A stretch of DNA of 64,000 bases from Gammaproteobacteria bacterium (lineage in GTDB: Bacteria; Pseudomonadota; Gammaproteobacteria; Pseudomonadales; Pseudohongiellaceae). This document shows positions 51,316-57,807 of this stretch, one piece after another (position 1 is the stretch's first letter; each line of letters opens with the position of its first letter). Location of the stretch: assembly GCA_030682575.1 (NCBI GenBank), contig JAUXNX010000031.1, positions 124,001-188,000 on the forward strand. Direction: 5' to 3'. Under the pieces are notes generated by a model. It had not been told where the DNA came from. It did no database searches and worked only from the letters and a program-made list of their open reading frames with translations. The position numbers and the translations under genes are program-made.

Positions 51316-52974
51316 CTATTGTCCAGTCATTGCAGCCTGCTGTGCCCTCTGGTTGTTGCATACTCTGCCATCGTTCAGTTTCCACACTACCGGATTCCAG
51401 AACTCCAGATCACCAAACTCGCCATGCGATCTTGGCTCCGCTTCCTCACAGCGATCAAACGCCTTGAAGACCAGATCACCTGTCGAGCCCCGCAAGCGCC
51501 GATCGATAACATCAATCGAGGAGAGGACATTGATCTCGGACCCCAATGTACGTTGCAGAGGATGTTCTGGAAGCTCATGGTGATGATCGATTGACACCAG
51601 CAGTGATCCCAACGGAACTACTCCAGAGAAATGCATCTCCGATACTTCTGCCACGCGATTCAATGTCAGATTGTAAAAATTGATTGGATTCTCTGCGGCA
51701 CTTGCGCTTGAAAGAACAGGGCCAAGGGCATTGAGTGAGTCTGCGATATTCGCGGCAGCCGCCATATACACGATGTTCTTGAGCGCACCGGAAGTTGCCC
51801 ATCGTGCCTGTTGACTGTCCAACACACTGTTGATCGCGATGGTACCCATGCTGTGACCGACAAGCGTGATTTCGTACTTCACTTCTGGATGGGTTGATTT
51901 GCGCTTGTCTACCCAGTCAAGCAGCGCCTGAAAAAATTCAGCCCCGCGAATACCCGGTGGACGGCGTCCGTCGAAATACCAGGGAGGGTTGAAGATATTC
52001 TGTGTACGCCGCTTCATGTTGTCCCAGGCAGTTGCGGAAATGCCACTGTGCCAGAGTGAACCCACTGTATAGCGAAGCGGAAAAGTCACTGCGGATTGAG
52101 TGCCGCGCCAAACCATTCCCGACGAATCACTGTAAAAGTTACTCAGGTTGGCATTGACCTTGTAATCCAATCCGCTCTTGTCCTTGAGATTCGATGTGGT
52201 ACAGCCGCTGAGATTCTGGTCAATAGCACGCTCGGTCACCAGATCGTCACAGAATCGCAGAATACTTGAGACCCATGCCTGTGAAAGCCAGCCGGGGATC
52301 TGCGCGGAAGCCAACCGGTCTTTCTCATTGGTGATCTGGAAATAAGCTGTGGCAGGATAGCGACCAACCGAGCGCAACATGTCAGAAGCAATCATGAACG
52401 GTGCCGTCGGCCAGCCTATGGCCTTGCCAACCTTGCGTCCTTCCCGCACATGAAATGTGTGTTCGAACCAGGTAGGCGCCGCAGAGGAATCCCAGGACAC
52501 GAAGATCGGATAGTGCCAGTTCTCCGAGTCGTTCATGATCTTGTATGGAATCTTCTTGTCGATGACGCGTCTGTCGCTGTCATTGAAGGAATTGAGTCCT
52601 CCGTGCACATATACCAGCAATTTGACGACCGTCTCAGCTGAATCTGAAGACTTGTGTGCAACGGCAAGACGTTCGGCATCACAGAACAGGCGATGATACA
52701 TCTCATCCACTTCTTCACGACTCAACAATGCCGGATCAAGTTTCTCCAGCATGCTCAACTGGGAGATATCCTGCGCGATAAGGTGACCGTCATTGTTCAT
52801 CCTGACGATATGATCTTTAGGGGACAAGGGTTGGTTGAAGTTGAAATCTGCGCTACCAAAACAGGCGGAGTCGGCGACTGGAAACTCACGGAACGAGTCA
52901 TGGACAATCGGCGCTGCACTGTTGCAGGCCACAAGAACAAGCATAATCACGAGCAGGTTGCATCTCTGAAACAT
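51316..52974 (-). CDS. Lipoprotein with alpha/beta-hydrolase fold
   Basis: A 552-residue protein with a lipoprotein signal (LVIMLVLVAC). A hydrolase core is indicated by KLLVYVHGGLNSF (oxyanion region) and ITLVGHSMGTIAINSVL with the nucleophile Ser in GHSMG; SIDHHHELP near the C-terminus may supply the His. The central 200 residues are insert-like, without a recognised domain. Probably an esterase or lipase-like enzyme on the outer membrane; substrate unknown. It is convergent with the methyltransferase. Confidence 0.75.
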   Translation of the reverse strand: MFQRCNLLVIMLVLVACNSAAPIVHDSFREFPVADSACFGSADFNFNQPLSPKDHIVRMNNDGHLIAQDISQLSMLEKLDPALLSREEVDEMYHRLFCDAERLAVAHKSSDSAETVVKLLVYVHGGLNSFNDSDRRVIDKKIPYKIMNDSENWHYPIFVSWDSSAAPTWFEHTFHVREGRKVGKAIGWPTAPFMIASDMLRSVGRYPATAYFQITNEKDRLASAQIPGWLSQAWVSSILRFCDDLVTERAIDQNLSGCTTSNLKDKSGLDYKVNANLSNFYSDSSGMVWRGTQSAVTFPLRYTVGSLWHSGISATAWDNMKRRTQNIFNPPWYFDGRRPPGIRGAEFFQALLDWVDKRKSTHPEVKYEITLVGHSMGTIAINSVLDSQQARWATSGALKNIVYMAAAANIADSLNALGPVLSSASAAENPINFYNLTLNRVAEVSEMHFSGVVPLGSLLVSIDHHHELPEHPLQRTLGSEINVLSSIDVIDRRLRGSTGDLVFKAFDRCEEAEPRSHGEFGDLEFWNPVVWKLNDGRVCNNQRAQQAAMTGQ

Positions 52975-53190: not shown

Positions 53191-54576
53191 TCAGAACTGG
53201 AATTCGACCGTGCCCAGCACGCGGTGCTTGTCGTAGGCGTAGATGTCGAAGTTGTCACGCTGATCGGTGTATTGGTACTCCGCCTTCGCGCGCCAGTGGC
53301 GATTGAAGCGATAGGCAACATCGGCTGTCAATTTGCTCTGCTTGTTGATGCGCTGTTCATGGCGGATCTGTCCGTCCGTGTCACGCAAGCGGTTTTCTCC
53401 GTCGTAACGACTGTGGATATGCTCCGCGATCACGCCGGTGCTCAGCGCCTGAGTTGCCTGCCAGCGTGCCTCCAGACGAATGCCGTGACGATTCGGTGAA
53501 TAGCTGGCGAAGGCACCATCACGCTGCAGATCGTCGCGCGCATTGGTTTCGTAGCGATAGCGACTGCGCAGATTGAACTCACCAAACTGTTTGCGCCATC
53601 CCAGTTCCACTACGTGCTGGTCGCCATCAATCTGTGCGAAATCCTTTCCCGCATTGAACCGACTGTAGGCGTAACTGGTATTCACAGTGCCGAAGTCGAA
53701 GCGACGCGAGAGTCCTGCATTGATCTGCCACTGGTCGGCAACATCGCGCGAATCGAGCGATGTTGTCGTCGCTCGCAGTCCCCCTTCGAACAGATAATTG
53801 CCCACAGGCTTTTCGTAAACACCGCCGATGCCCAGCACCAGACTGTCGAGATGATCGAACTCGTTGAAGGCTCGATGGAAGCCAAGGCCATAGATGCGAA
53901 ACCCATTTCCCTGACGACCGGCTAGTTGCACGTGACCATAGACCAACAGCTCGTGAAAGTAGTCTTCCGCGCTGCTTGCACTTTCCAACAGGTCATCAGC
54001 AAGGCTCGATGCGTTGGAGTCCTGACCCGCGGTGGCGCTGATCAATCCCGCCCATCGGTTCGGTGCTGAGGCTGAGGCGGTGGTGTTCGCTGCAGTAATT
54101 GCAGAGCCTTGCTGCTCCAGCGCAACGAGCTTCTGCTGTGCCAGTGCATTGACGCGATCGTTCTCCTGCTGCTGCGCGGACAGGCGGTAATACTGCATCG
54201 CCACTGCTCGCTCCTGCTGCGCTTCGGCGACCAGACCAAGGTTGTAGCGCACCAGTACCTGCCACTCGGGTTTGTCGACGAGTACATTGAAGCGTTCCTT
54301 CGCTTCCTCGTAACGACCCAGACGATAGAGGCTGACTGCAATGTTGTACTCCAGGGAGTTGCTCTGATCTCCTGCGCGTTCCGCTTGCTCGAAAAATTCT
54401 AGCGCCTGCTGATAGTTGCCCTGGTTGAAGGCCGCGATACCTTCGTTTGAAACGGCTACCGCTGATGCTGCATTCTGCGTGGTCTGCGCCAGAACCGGCA
54501 GCGTGGCCAGCAGAACGGAAACACTCAGTATCTTGCGAAAGTGATTCTGCAAATGAAACTGCAAATGCTGTGACAT
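53191..54576 (-). CDS. Outer-membrane protein with TPR domain and beta-barrel (Slam-like layout)
   Basis: A 461-residue protein from ATG 54576, which follows AGAGGA. A signal peptide (ILSVSVLLATLPVLAQ) precedes TPR-type repeats (~35-140, NEGIAAFNQGNYQQALEFFEQA, YNIAVSLYRLGRYEEAKERF, YNLGLVAEAQQERAVAMQYY). The rest has beta-strand alternation with a GQDSNAS segment and ends VLGTVEFQF, a barrel-type C-terminus. N-terminal TPR plus C-terminal barrel is the layout of surface lipoprotein assembly modifiers and type XI secretion proteins; family membership is not proven here. Last gene of the ECF operon. Confidence 0.75.
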   Translation of the reverse strand: MSQHLQFHLQNHFRKILSVSVLLATLPVLAQTTQNAASAVAVSNEGIAAFNQGNYQQALEFFEQAERAGDQSNSLEYNIAVSLYRLGRYEEAKERFNVLVDKPEWQVLVRYNLGLVAEAQQERAVAMQYYRLSAQQQENDRVNALAQQKLVALEQQGSAITAANTTASASAPNRWAGLISATAGQDSNASSLADDLLESASSAEDYFHELLVYGHVQLAGRQGNGFRIYGLGFHRAFNEFDHLDSLVLGIGGVYEKPVGNYLFEGGLRATTTSLDSRDVADQWQINAGLSRRFDFGTVNTSYAYSRFNAGKDFAQIDGDQHVVELGWRKQFGEFNLRSRYRYETNARDDLQRDGAFASYSPNRHGIRLEARWQATQALSTGVIAEHIHSRYDGENRLRDTDGQIRHEQRINKQSKLTADVAYRFNRHWRAKAEYQYTDQRDNFDIYAYDKHRVLGTVEFQF

Positions 54577-54621
54577 ATTCTTTGTCCTCTTGTTTGCCAT
54601 GACTTTTTCAAATGGTGTCGC

Positions 54622-55455
54622 TTACAGTCCGGGGATCTCGGGAATCTCCGGAACACCATCCGTCAGCGGCGACAGCGAGTCAGTCGCAGGGATGCCGCTG
54701 ATCGGCAAGTCCTGCAGATCTTCAAGGGGAACATTGTTGGCATCGTTGACGATGTCGTTGACGACACTGTCCACAGAGTCATTAATTGGAACGTCCAGAT
54801 TGTCGACGATGGCATCGGCATTCGCATTGATGGCACTGTCTACGGCGCTGTCAATCGTGAGGTTATTCAACACACCTCCAGCAGACACACCACCGCCGAC
54901 GATGCTGCCAACGTCAGGTGCGTTACCGGGAAGATTGTCCACCACGCCGTCGAGCCTGTCAGATGTCTGTGTCAACGTGTCACCCAGCGGAAGATTCGGA
55001 TTGAGAATATCGACAACTGCGGGCGGTATTCCGCCAACGCCGATGCCAACACCTGTGCCGCCTCCAATACCTCCCCCAACTCCGCCACCGACTCCGCCTC
55101 CTGCCCCCCCGCCAACGCCACCACCAACACCAACTCCGTCCACGCTGATGATTTCGCGAATCCTGTCGGTTGCCACTTGCGAGGCGTTATCGGAAATGCG
55201 GACTGTCTCTGTGACTGCCTCTGCAATCACTTCTGCCTGCGTCTGCGTCACTGCATCCGCATCGACCAGAGCGTCCAGCGTCGGCAGTGCCAGACGATTG
55301 ATGAATCCGTTCGGTGTTTCTCCTGCCTGAATCACACTGATGGTGAGATCCAATTCGTTGGCCGCTTGCGCCAACACCGTGTTGCTGGAACAAAGAGAAG
55401 CAAGTGCGATTGCCGAAACCGCTGCATGAAGAGTTGAGTACTTGCCATTTATCAT
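54622..55455 (-). CDS. Exported Gly/Val/Asp-rich low-complexity protein
   Basis: A 277-residue protein from ATG 55455 (GGGAG upstream). Signal peptide ends near VLAQA. The mature part has a ~40-residue Gly-Val array (VGVGGGVGGGAGGGVGGG and on) at ~112-145, flanked by Asp/Asn-rich segments with repeated DSAVDSAINANADAIVDNL-like units, and ends PEIPEIPGL. There is no cysteine in the predicted mature part. No family recognised. Composition suggests a structural surface or matrix protein. It lies 21 bases before the TPR/barrel gene. Confidence 0.75.
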   Translation of the reverse strand: MINGKYSTLHAAVSAIALASLCSSNTVLAQAANELDLTISVIQAGETPNGFINRLALPTLDALVDADAVTQTQAEVIAEAVTETVRISDNASQVATDRIREIISVDGVGVGGGVGGGAGGGVGGGVGGGIGGGTGVGIGVGGIPPAVVDILNPNLPLGDTLTQTSDRLDGVVDNLPGNAPDVGSIVGGGVSAGGVLNNLTIDSAVDSAINANADAIVDNLDVPINDSVDSVVNDIVNDANNVPLEDLQDLPISGIPATDSLSPLTDGVPEIPEIPGL

Positions 55456-55516
55456 GATGATCTCCCGATGTTCTTTGTCGATCCGTAATGAATTCTGTTT
55501 TCTGTATCCATTTTTC

Positions 55517-55555
55517 AAAAAGTGAGGTGGCTGGCGTCCTTGTCTTGCCACCTCT
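55517..55555 (-). terminator. Terminator-like hairpin between the two low-complexity genes
   Basis: On the minus strand an 8-bp stem (GAGGTGGC / GCCACCTC, 55525-55532 and 55548-55555) with a 15-base loop is followed by ACTTTTTG. It sits in the 127-base gap after the Ala-rich gene and could partly stop transcription there, giving more of the first product than of the downstream ones. Confidence 0.5.
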
Positions 55556-55582
55556 ACTACCCAGGAGGGGTTCGTTCCACCC

Positions 55583-56329
55583 TTACAGGCCCAGACCACC
55601 AGTCACGTTACCTGTGACATCTGTCACGCTGCTCAGGCTTGCGCTCAATTCGCTGCTCTGCTCGCCCAGGCTTCTGGATGACTCGATCGCCACTTCGTTG
55701 GCCACGCTTGCAGCAACTTCGAGACCGGCATTCACGTCTATCGCACCGTCGATGTCTTCCACCATGTTGCGACCGCTGCCGACAGTAACGTCCACCACTG
55801 ACTGAGCCGTGGCTGATGCATTGGCACCGAGAGTCAATGACTCGCCCACGATTGCTTCCGCTGCAGCCTCTGCACTGCGTTCGGCCTGCTCGGCACGGAT
55901 GCCGGCACTCAGAATCGCATTGGCAACGGCACCTGCATCGGCAGAGACTTCGTCATCACTCGCAGCAACCACAACGGCGTTGAGTGCGGCATTGGCGGCA
56001 CCATTCACGTTCGCAGACTGGCTGGTGCTGTTGCCCGCTTCGGTAATGGCAGTCACGGAGCGACGTGTGGAAGTTTCGGTGCTCGCCGCCACATTGGCCG
56101 CCGCATTGACACTGGCATTCGCCGTTGCAGAAGCGTTGTCGGAAAGCGCATCGACGATCTGGCGATGACTCACTCTGGCTGATGCATTGGTAGACGCAGA
56201 AGCCTGTGCATTCGCGGCAGCTTCCAGTGCTGATTGGGCAGTGGCGGCCACGCCGTACAGGCAGCCCGAAGCGATCAGCAGAGACAGTGTGGTTTTTCTG
56301 AAAAGTTTTGCTGTGTTGATGTTACGCAT
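55583..56329 (-). CDS. Exported Ala/Ser/Asn-rich low-complexity protein
   Basis: A 248-residue protein with a signal peptide (TTLSLLIASGCLYGVAATAQS). The mature chain is dominated by Ala, Ser, Asn, Val and Glu in irregular repeats (ANAQASASTNASARVS, NASATANASVNAAANVAAS, ERSAEAAAEAIVGES) and ends VTGNVTGGLGL. No aromatic residues appear in the mature part. Composition resembles fibrous or amyloid-like secreted proteins, but no FapC or curlin repeat is seen. It lies 40 bases after the anti-sigma gene in the same operon. Confidence 0.75.
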   Translation of the reverse strand: MRNINTAKLFRKTTLSLLIASGCLYGVAATAQSALEAAANAQASASTNASARVSHRQIVDALSDNASATANASVNAAANVAASTETSTRRSVTAITEAGNSTSQSANVNGAANAALNAVVVAASDDEVSADAGAVANAILSAGIRAEQAERSAEAAAEAIVGESLTLGANASATAQSVVDVTVGSGRNMVEDIDGAIDVNAGLEVAASVANEVAIESSRSLGEQSSELSASLSSVTDVTGNVTGGLGL

Positions 56330-56369
56330 TGTTAAGTCCTCTTTAAGTTGATTGCTCGTTTGAAGCGAC

Positions 56370-57050
56370 TCAGATGATCAGACTGATCGGCAACATGCCG
56401 GCCTGTTGCATCTGTGACGCGGCCTCCACAGTGAGCTGCATCTGTTTGCGAGCGCCGCCGGATTCCACCTGAACGACGATGCTGCCACTGCTGTTTCCCC
56501 GGAGCTGTACTGGCAGAGTCAACTGGTTGTTGCCCTGCGCAATCGATGTCGACCAGCGGATTCTGTCGAGGCCCGGATATCCTTCCAGACTCACGTTCTC
56601 GTCCATTTGCACGGTGATCCAGGCATCCGCAAGGGCCTGCCCGCTCACCATCAACAGATCCACCGGTCGCACCGACTGCGGCGCCACTTCCACTACCTGC
56701 AGTGGTGAACCACCGCCAGTTGTGACGCCCGGTCCGGGAACCATGAAGGCTGCGCCGACGGCCAACACCAGCGTTGCCGCTGTTGCCAGCAACCAGCCGG
56801 CATTCACCGACGGGGCAGTCCTCTGGCCATCCCTGGCCGCCCATGCACGCTGCAGAGCCCTATCTGCGAATCCTTCGCCTGGCCCTGCCACCGGGATTGC
56901 ACTCAGCAGTTGTCTGAACTGCAGATCCTCGGTGTACTCACGACAGCTTGTGCAAGACTCCAGATGAGTGTGCAACACGCCGGGAACCATCTCGCGAAGG
57001 CCCTTCACCCCGATTCGTTGCAGTTGCTGTCTGAAGTTTTCACAGTGCAT
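56370..57050 (-). CDS. Membrane anti-sigma factor with zinc-finger domain
   Basis: A 226-residue protein from ATG 57050 (AAGGAG upstream). The N-terminal anti-sigma domain has the zinc motif HTHLESCTSCREY (HxxxCxxC). One transmembrane helix (~92-112, WLLATAATLVLAVGAAFMV) is followed by a ~110-residue periplasmic domain that is beta-rich (WITVQMDENVSLEGYPG, LTLPVQLRGNSSGSIVVQV). It lies 37 bases after the sigma gene, the usual cognate arrangement, and should hold the sigma factor at the membrane until a periplasmic cue. Confidence 0.85.
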   Translation of the reverse strand: MHCENFRQQLQRIGVKGLREMVPGVLHTHLESCTSCREYTEDLQFRQLLSAIPVAGPGEGFADRALQRAWAARDGQRTAPSVNAGWLLATAATLVLAVGAAFMVPGPGVTTGGGSPLQVVEVAPQSVRPVDLLMVSGQALADAWITVQMDENVSLEGYPGLDRIRWSTSIAQGNNQLTLPVQLRGNSSGSIVVQVESGGARKQMQLTVEAASQMQQAGMLPISLII

Positions 57051-57087
57051 GGTGTCTCTCCTTTGCTGACTGACACGGAGCAAATCT

Positions 57088-57606
57088 CTAAAAGGTTCCA
57101 GCTTCCAAAAATATTTTCAGCTTTGCGCGCGCCCGGTGCAGACGGGACTTGATGGTTCCGATATTTTCTTCAAGAATTTCAGCTGCTTCCGAAGCGGAAT
57201 AGCCTTCGACATCATGCAGCAGAATGACGTCACGCTGGTCGTCATCGAGGGTTTCCAGGGCCTTCAGAAGGGCTTCGCGATCATCCAGTTGGGTGTAGTC
57301 GTCGCGGGGATCAGCGTGCGGAATTGCAAGAGGAGAAATGTCATCGTCCCCCTCGGCAAGCAGTTTCAGCAATGCAGACTCGGCACTGACGGGATTGCTT
57401 GTCTGGCTTCTATGCAGATCCACGAAGCGCCGGTACACACACTTGATGAGCCAGGGGCGCAGCTGCTCGATCTGCAGCATTTCATCCACGCAATCCGCCA
57501 GACGAATGAGGACGTCCTGCACGATATCCTCGGCATCCGCCTCGGAGCGCGTCCAGCGATACGCCATGCGATACATCAGCTCGATATGCGGGCGCAACAG
57601 TCCCAT
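57088..57606 (-). CDS. ECF-subfamily RNA polymerase sigma factor
   Basis: A 172-residue sigma factor with region 2 (YRMAYRWTRSEADAEDIVQDVLIRL) and region 4 (LDDDQRDVILLHDVEGYSASEAAEIL...GTIKSRLHRARAKLK). ATG 57606 is chosen because AGGAG lies 9 bases upstream; TTG 57624 is also in frame. First gene of the minus-strand operon. ECF operons are often self-activated; I could not identify a confident -35/-10 pair. A 13-bp palindrome lies upstream. Confidence 0.92.
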   Translation of the reverse strand: MGLLRPHIELMYRMAYRWTRSEADAEDIVQDVLIRLADCVDEMLQIEQLRPWLIKCVYRRFVDLHRSQTSNPVSAESALLKLLAEGDDDISPLAIPHADPRDDYTQLDDREALLKALETLDDDQRDVILLHDVEGYSASEAAEILEENIGTIKSRLHRARAKLKIFLEAGTF

Positions 57607-57637
57607 GAACTGCCGCTCCTGCAATCTCTCCTGCGAT

Positions 57638-57650
57638 TTCGCATTGCGAA
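57638..57650. promoter_or_regulatory. Short palindrome upstream of the ECF sigma gene
   Basis: TTCGCA-T-TGCGAA is a perfect 6-bp inverted repeat around one base, 32 bases before the sigma start, next to a run of A on the plus strand. It could be an operator or chance; no regulator is known to me for it. Confidence 0.3.
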
Positions 57651-57807
57651 AAAAACTGATCAGTGTGCCCAGGATTAGACTCCTTCTTGTTGTCTTCTCT
57701 AAAGAAGCAAGGGTGTGGTCTGACGCTGAGACGGTTTTGTGAAGGGCTGCTCAATGAAGTGCATGTTATGAAATCTGCGAACGCAGAGTTGTGAACTGGT
57801 TTGGAAT

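Follow-up and report, generated by a model that had tools for sequence, protein, structure and literature searches.

Several described systems share traits with the locus treated here. Small exported low-complexity proteins are encoded beside an outer-membrane pore in the Fap system of Pseudomonas and in curli, PgaA, PelB and BcsC combine tetratricopeptide repeats (TPRs) with an outer-membrane barrel, and in FecI/FecR/FecA an extracytoplasmic function (ECF) sigma factor and an anti-sigma factor are found beside an outer-membrane protein. Such traits are found in an operon of five genes on the minus strand at 53191–57606 of a stretch of 64,000 nucleotides, hereafter the window, from a gammaproteobacterial genome (contig JAUXNX010000031.1, positions 124,001 to 188,000), which encodes an ECF sigma factor, an anti-sigma factor, two small exported proteins and a TPR/barrel protein. 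A further parallel is type XI secretion (T11SS, PF04575), for which published work states that Slam1 translocates unfolded TbpB (PMC9090332), that DUF560 proteins secrete, also when rebuilt in E. coli, and that their TPR and barrel plan parallels that of polysaccharide porins (PMC8406197), that all verified T11SS cargo comes from cluster 1, whose predicted cargo shares a C-terminal barrel domain, and that in the marine cluster 3 this cargo barrel is rare, with DUF1194 co-occurring instead (PMC12282271).

The first-pass annotation of the window proposed a self-regulated system that exports one or both of the low-complexity proteins, an interpretation that as a whole is partly supported. The conserved unit consists of four genes, sigma factor, anti-sigma factor, a small exported protein (X) and TPR/barrel protein, and the Gly/Val/Asp-rich X of the window is the general partner of the barrel; many environmental Gammaproteobacteria carry this compact cassette. 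Judged from its sequence, the cassette looks like an undescribed branch of known surface-export machinery, and we think it rather probable that it is a Slam-like exporter, under its own regulation, of a disordered protein with an N-terminal tag.

With T11SS the cassette shares the N-terminal TPRs, a C-terminal barrel of about 280 residues, profile homology over the full length of the barrel and an adjoining partner gene, and a partner lacking a fold would fit the transport of an unfolded chain; it differs in that single sequences of the window group fall below the Pfam cut-off and in that the operon holds a dedicated ECF sigma/anti-sigma pair. Neither exported protein matches Fap, curli or a recognized family, as had been noted before, and a Pfam scan of both at E≤1 lists no Fap or curlin domain; besides this missing match, the TPR barrel and the ECF control set the cassette apart from these two systems. 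Unlike FecI/FecR/FecA, it has an anti-sigma factor of the zinc-finger type, and none of the five window genes has a Pfam match to a TonB-dependent receptor.

Organization and conservation of the cassette

The five co-directional genes are real, with all five open reading frames (ORFs) present, and the ECF assignment holds, the Sigma70_r2 and r4_2 domains both scoring above the Pfam cut-offs. The sigma gene (57088..57672) is followed on the same minus strand by the gene of an anti-sigma factor of the zinc-finger type (56370..57050), in which a single membrane span was recognized by eye and the C-terminal domain is conserved, by gene 3 for a lineage-specific Ala/Ser/Asn-rich exported protein (P0003; 55583..56329), by gene 4 for X (P0004; 54622..55455), a small exported protein and the proposed cargo, with a signal peptide, a conserved N-terminal motif and a Gly/Val/Asp-rich tail, and by gene 5 for the proposed translocon (53191..54600), an outer-membrane protein with TPR matches and a barrel ending in Phe. 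Signal peptides were assigned by eye throughout.

A search of 57 genomes, the own one included, gave strong gene 5 matches in four members of one genus, G000, G010, G001 and G006. Strong anti-sigma matches were found in only these four of 14 genus genomes, gene 3 matched in these four only of the 57, and gene 4 is present there at the same loci as gene 5. The five genes have identical order and direction in all four (the window plus three), with protein identities of 31–89%. The expectation that the five genes keep together was thus borne out in four of the 14 genus genomes, the wider conserved unit being the four genes. Since the order recurs in three other genus genomes and its core in 69 of the 74 loci described below, the grouping is more than chance.

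At the order level a profile of seven barrels was run against 390 genomes, 40 of which matched at E≤1e-10, and at the class level a 37-sequence barrel profile against 369 genomes, with 64 matching at E≤1e-12. The contexts of 40 of 43 order-level places (window included) and of 40 of 77 non-own class-level places were read, most of those left out being weak or partial matches or lying on short contigs. In all, 82 contexts besides the window were read; with the window added, 74 loci are of the cassette type and nine are weak relatives of it. The 74 are not independent, because there are close relatives among them.

In 69 of the 74 barrel loci the order is ECF sigma factor, anti-sigma factor, small exported protein(s) and TPR/barrel protein, all on one strand. 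Two loci, L084 and L158, hold X and the barrel only, with no sigma or anti-sigma gene within the stretch read. A check of their whole genomes (G296, G414), which covered the anti-sigma profile and not sigma, gave no match at E≤0.001 in the genome of L084, which is 99% complete, and only weak matches, the best at 1e-9, in that of L158. L168 is cut by a contig edge and has X, L169 is a barrel locus lacking sigma factor, anti-sigma factor and X, and L166 is taken up below. No sigma or anti-sigma gene was detected in the stretches read around the nine weak relatives. L098, counted among them, is a cassette that the end of its contig truncates; beside its barrel are X and the terminal portion of a frame resembling an anti-sigma gene. 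A phylum-level search of 398 genomes yielded four at E≤1e-40, which belong without exception to the same order, a lower yield than the class search would suggest and the basis for no claim of absence elsewhere. In L142 a PAP2-like gene and the gene of another outer-membrane-like protein, both named by eye, lie between X and the barrel.

The barrel and its partner protein

The first-pass annotation had likened the last gene to Slam/DUF560 barrels, and this was supported at the level of remote profile homology (99.2–99.9%, with reversed controls under 5%). TPR models match all 37 cassette barrel proteins, 21 of which also match TPR_Slam at E≤1. A profile of 40 cassette barrels matched four SlipAM barrels from the PF04575 search with 99.9% (reversed 0.7%), and the two of these four outside the class-search list with 99.2% over 270 columns (reversed 0.4%). 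Against eight SlipAM-type barrels, a set that includes the cassette barrel of L098 and three others first found by the cassette profile, the value was 99.8% over 274 of 280 columns, and with L098 removed it was 99.9% (reversed 4.8%); over the SlipAM sets the alignments span 269–274 of the 280 columns. Three column shuffles gave at most 0.2%, a TonB receptor 0.1%, another outer-membrane protein 1.1%, a TolC-like protein 0.1% and a three-member BBP2_2 set 5.9%. Matches of single sequences at E≤1 were found to SlipAM in eight and to BBP2_2 in 18 of the 37 members, and the L098 barrel, taken as a single sequence, scores 26.7 and so exceeds the SlipAM gathering threshold of 22. On these profile comparisons the cassette barrel is a remote, full-length homologue within the Slam barrel superfamily, and it is not assigned as a T11SS; in the window the barrel domain so predicted, a remote SlipAM/DUF560 homologue, comprises 283 residues (53194..54042, minus strand).

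An X with a common motif behind the signal peptide was picked in 73 of the 74 loci, including each of the 69 one-strand cassettes, although the picks were made by eye with signature strings and L152, L164 and others are weak. From 17 chosen sequences the consensus is (D/E)LD(V/I)T(M/I)xV, a variable linker and (I/L)xLP, and the window motif is NELDLTISVIQAGETPNGFINRLALP, residues 33–58 of X (55282..55359, minus strand). The earlier description of the gene 4 product as a low-complexity protein therefore applies to its Gly/Val/Asp-rich tail, and not to this conserved N-terminal motif. In a blind test, a model for which only the order-level X had served as training set was applied to the 5118 ORFs of 37 class-level loci, and at E<0.1 it matched in 12 loci, all 12 matches being X (ten were flagged by the script, and those in L135 and L136 were recognized by separate identification). 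With no threshold the top ORF lay between anti-sigma factor and barrel in 18 of the 37 loci, some with E above 1, and it was also X in L145; the other loci gave no convincing match.

From the motif onward Cys is absent in 72 of 73 X chains, the sole exception being L018 (G010), where X was read across a scaffold gap (a run of N) and the tail is unreadable. The tails are hydrophilic, with a median of 13% FILMVWYC, and vary fast between lineages, from Gly-rich in the window to Asp/Arg repeats elsewhere. Long near-perfect charged repeats are present in the tails of L141, L148, L153, L164 and L165, of the types DREDSMSD, NDSRDDA, DDKEEREQ and KDEAHDE. Pfam and NCBIfam scans found no family above cut-off for P0003 and P0004. 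Matches of P0004 to JHBP and DUF5577 are far below the cut-offs and were taken as chance. Over the 57 genomes P0004 has matches in 13; those in genomes free of the cassette are weak, extend for the most part into the Gly stretch and were set aside.

Regulatory sequences and lineage-specific genes

The dyad GGAAC-N17-CGTG is found upstream of the sigma gene in 10 of 36 regions, belonging to families f9, f16 and f47, and the best dyad over five rounds of shuffling reached five regions; three further regions have TGCAACC-N16-CGTC at this place. The cassette promoter of several lineages resembles the RpoE-type sequence GGAACC/CGTGT. Self-regulation fits, since a sigma-type promoter precedes the sigma gene in these other lineages. 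In the f9 genomes a second site with this dyad is located about 27 bases behind the barrel gene in four of four, and in three of them an exported acidic low-complexity ORF follows this second GGAACC/CGTGT site (L023:12978-13394, L068:7382-7756 and L071:7366-7977), the second exported protein of L023 having repeats of the TAGTDD type. In L069 the same opening residues can be read behind the second site, but no ORF of 60 residues is listed. Genome-wide, GGAAC-N17-CGTGT occurs at 64 sites in the four f9 genomes against 27 in the backward control; no site from this search was assigned as a regulon member, and L219–L223 gave no clear further one.

The canonical sigma ORF comprises 57088–57606, and the gene probably starts instead at a CTG at 57670–57672, behind an AGGAG. 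In four of four genus members the frame continues upstream to such a CTG placed 6–9 nucleotides behind AGGAG. Between this CTG and the conserved RPHI the frame of L018 holds no ATG, GTG or TTG. In L019 a stop codon closes the frame four codons ahead of the CTG, and in L020 a TTG stands in frame two codons upstream of the CTG. For the anti-sigma factor of the window no Pfam match and a weak NCBIfam anti-sigma match were obtained; among its relatives zf-HC2 is above the cut-off in L021, at the cut-off in L022 and slightly below it in L023.

Gene 3 was confirmed in five of the genomes looked at, four of the genus and one other of the family, the last being the supported relative in L070 (23.6 bits, with 0 of 200 shuffles as high). 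A similar-looking protein in L075 lacks statistical support (-1.5 bits, 1 of 200 shuffles as high). The mature window chain alternates in hydrophobicity with a two-residue period of 178 degrees, a strength reached by 2 of 300 shuffles, and as many as 1, 0, 16 and 0 of 300 shuffles were as strong for L018, L019, L020 and L070 respectively; the L075 chain differs, with its peak at 97 degrees (5 of 300). Such a period is compatible with beta strands or fibres. A Cys within the hydrophobic stretch is invariant in the four genus sequences, from which comes the idea that the protein may be a lipoprotein; a signal-peptidase-I-like site, seen by eye, follows this Cys.

Beyond the operon, an alpha/beta-hydrolase-like gene (51316–52974, below cut-off) separates the window barrel gene from an O-methyltransferase-like gene named by eye. 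The hydrolase-like gene is missing at that place in L018–L020, where the methyltransferase gene is likewise near the barrel.

Possible function of the cassette

In the proposed mechanism an envelope signal would release the ECF sigma factor from the anti-sigma factor, and the sigma factor would transcribe its own operon, giving a Slam-like outer-membrane protein with periplasmic TPRs and a barrel, and one or two Sec-exported, Cys-free and presumably disordered proteins. The TPR/barrel protein would then bind the N-terminal motif of X in the periplasm, and unfolded X would thread through the barrel so that its low-complexity tail reaches the surface or the surroundings. We infer that X is disordered and the cargo, that its motif serves as recognition signal, and likewise the direction of transport and the signal sensed. 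A disordered X would suit Slam transport, since Slam1 translocates unfolded TbpB (PMC9090332).

A number of observations weigh against this reading. Self-regulation fits the lineages with a sigma-type promoter ahead of the sigma gene, and neither promoter pattern was detected there in the genus of the window; in eight f16 genomes GGAAC-N17-CGTGT is found at 49 sites, against 65 in the backward control. At neither E≤1 nor E≤10 does the barrel protein of the window match SlipAM, and among ten barrel-only members none exceeds the SlipAM cut-off (best 21.4 of 22 bits) and two exceed that of BBP2_2. One BBP2_2 protein alone matched the barrel profile with 96.2%, two others giving 0.0 and 0.1%, and on account of this single member a deeper tie of the cassette barrel to BBP2_2 is likely. 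On the question whether the last gene belongs to an unrelated porin family, the outcome is remote homology to Slam by profile, the tie to the BBP2_2 porin family being the weaker one. On the side of the cargo, 25 of the 37 class-level loci have no match to the motif model at E<0.1, indicating that the motif is degenerate. In place of the C-terminal 8-stranded barrel of cluster 1 cargo (PMC12282271), the partner has a short motif near its N-terminus and a tail of low complexity; Pfam detects no such barrel in P0003 or P0004, nor, at E≤1, in five scanned exported relatives (three X, one of gene-3 type and the X of L020). The tails could equally be periplasmic. Finally, a helix-like period is found in 25 of 71 X tails, so not all tails need be disordered, and in L166 sigma factor, anti-sigma factor and X are on the strand opposite to the barrel.

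The last two points would also suit X as a periplasmic regulator, in which case the motif would bind the periplasmic domain of the anti-sigma factor, the tail would sense ions, pH or cell-wall damage, and the barrel would be the effector, either a channel or a stabilizer. The X gene lies directly behind the anti-sigma gene, with an overlap of a few bases in many loci, and in L166 it accompanies the sigma and anti-sigma genes rather than the barrel. That X stays beside the barrel in L084 and L158, where no sigma or anti-sigma gene is near, speaks against a purely regulatory role, and the wild differences between the tails of different lineages are unlike a sensor; we therefore consider this explanation unlikely. 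It is quite improbable that the TPR/barrel protein is a polysaccharide exporter like PgaA, PelB or BcsC, with X as an accessory protein. The common TPR and barrel plan argues for it, as do weak NCBIfam matches at E≤0.001 to PgaA in two and to EpsL in seven of the 37 members, but no synthase gene was recognized between anti-sigma factor and barrel in the loci, which were inspected by eye with the flanks not profile-searched, the cassette is built round a tagged exported protein, and SlipAM is the best barrel match among the profiles tried, the PgaA and BcsC barrels being outside the comparison. That the anti-sigma factor senses barrel misassembly or a pile-up of X, and the cassette protects or remodels the outer membrane as an envelope-stress module with no specific secretion, would agree with the RpoE-like promoter and with the excess of sites in f9, which could mean a wider regulon, but has little probability in view of the conserved partner motif and the pairing with a Slam-type barrel, both of which point to a specific client.

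The reading as a Slam-like exporter may be extended, tentatively and with more doubt than confidence, to a gammaproteobacterial branch of T11SS that has its own sigma/anti-sigma switch, reads its cargo by a short N-terminal motif in place of a C-terminal barrel and brings to the cell surface disordered polymers that diversify rapidly. Cargo not yet exported could then use the same motif to signal, within the periplasm, to the periplasmic domain of the anti-sigma factor. The novelty of an ECF-controlled Slam-like cassette is not proven. In a literature search with subscription papers mostly outside it, no title or start of an abstract joined DUF560, Slam or T11SS with an ECF operon, and the word "sigma" is absent from the main text of PMC8406197 and PMC12282271; one full text contains "T11SS", "sigma factor" and "ECF" once each, and several contain "slam" as well as "ECF sigma", in part clearly with other meanings.

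For a family of exported low-complexity proteins that could not be grouped by the sequence of their tails alone, the cassette offers a hypothesis. If it is true, T11SS would cover, besides folded adhesins and haemophores with a C-terminal barrel, disordered chains tagged at the N-terminus, and the type XI machinery would gain a dedicated transcriptional switch. A minimal translocon of one protein, with a short tag on its client, would in addition make Slam-like substrate recognition directly testable.

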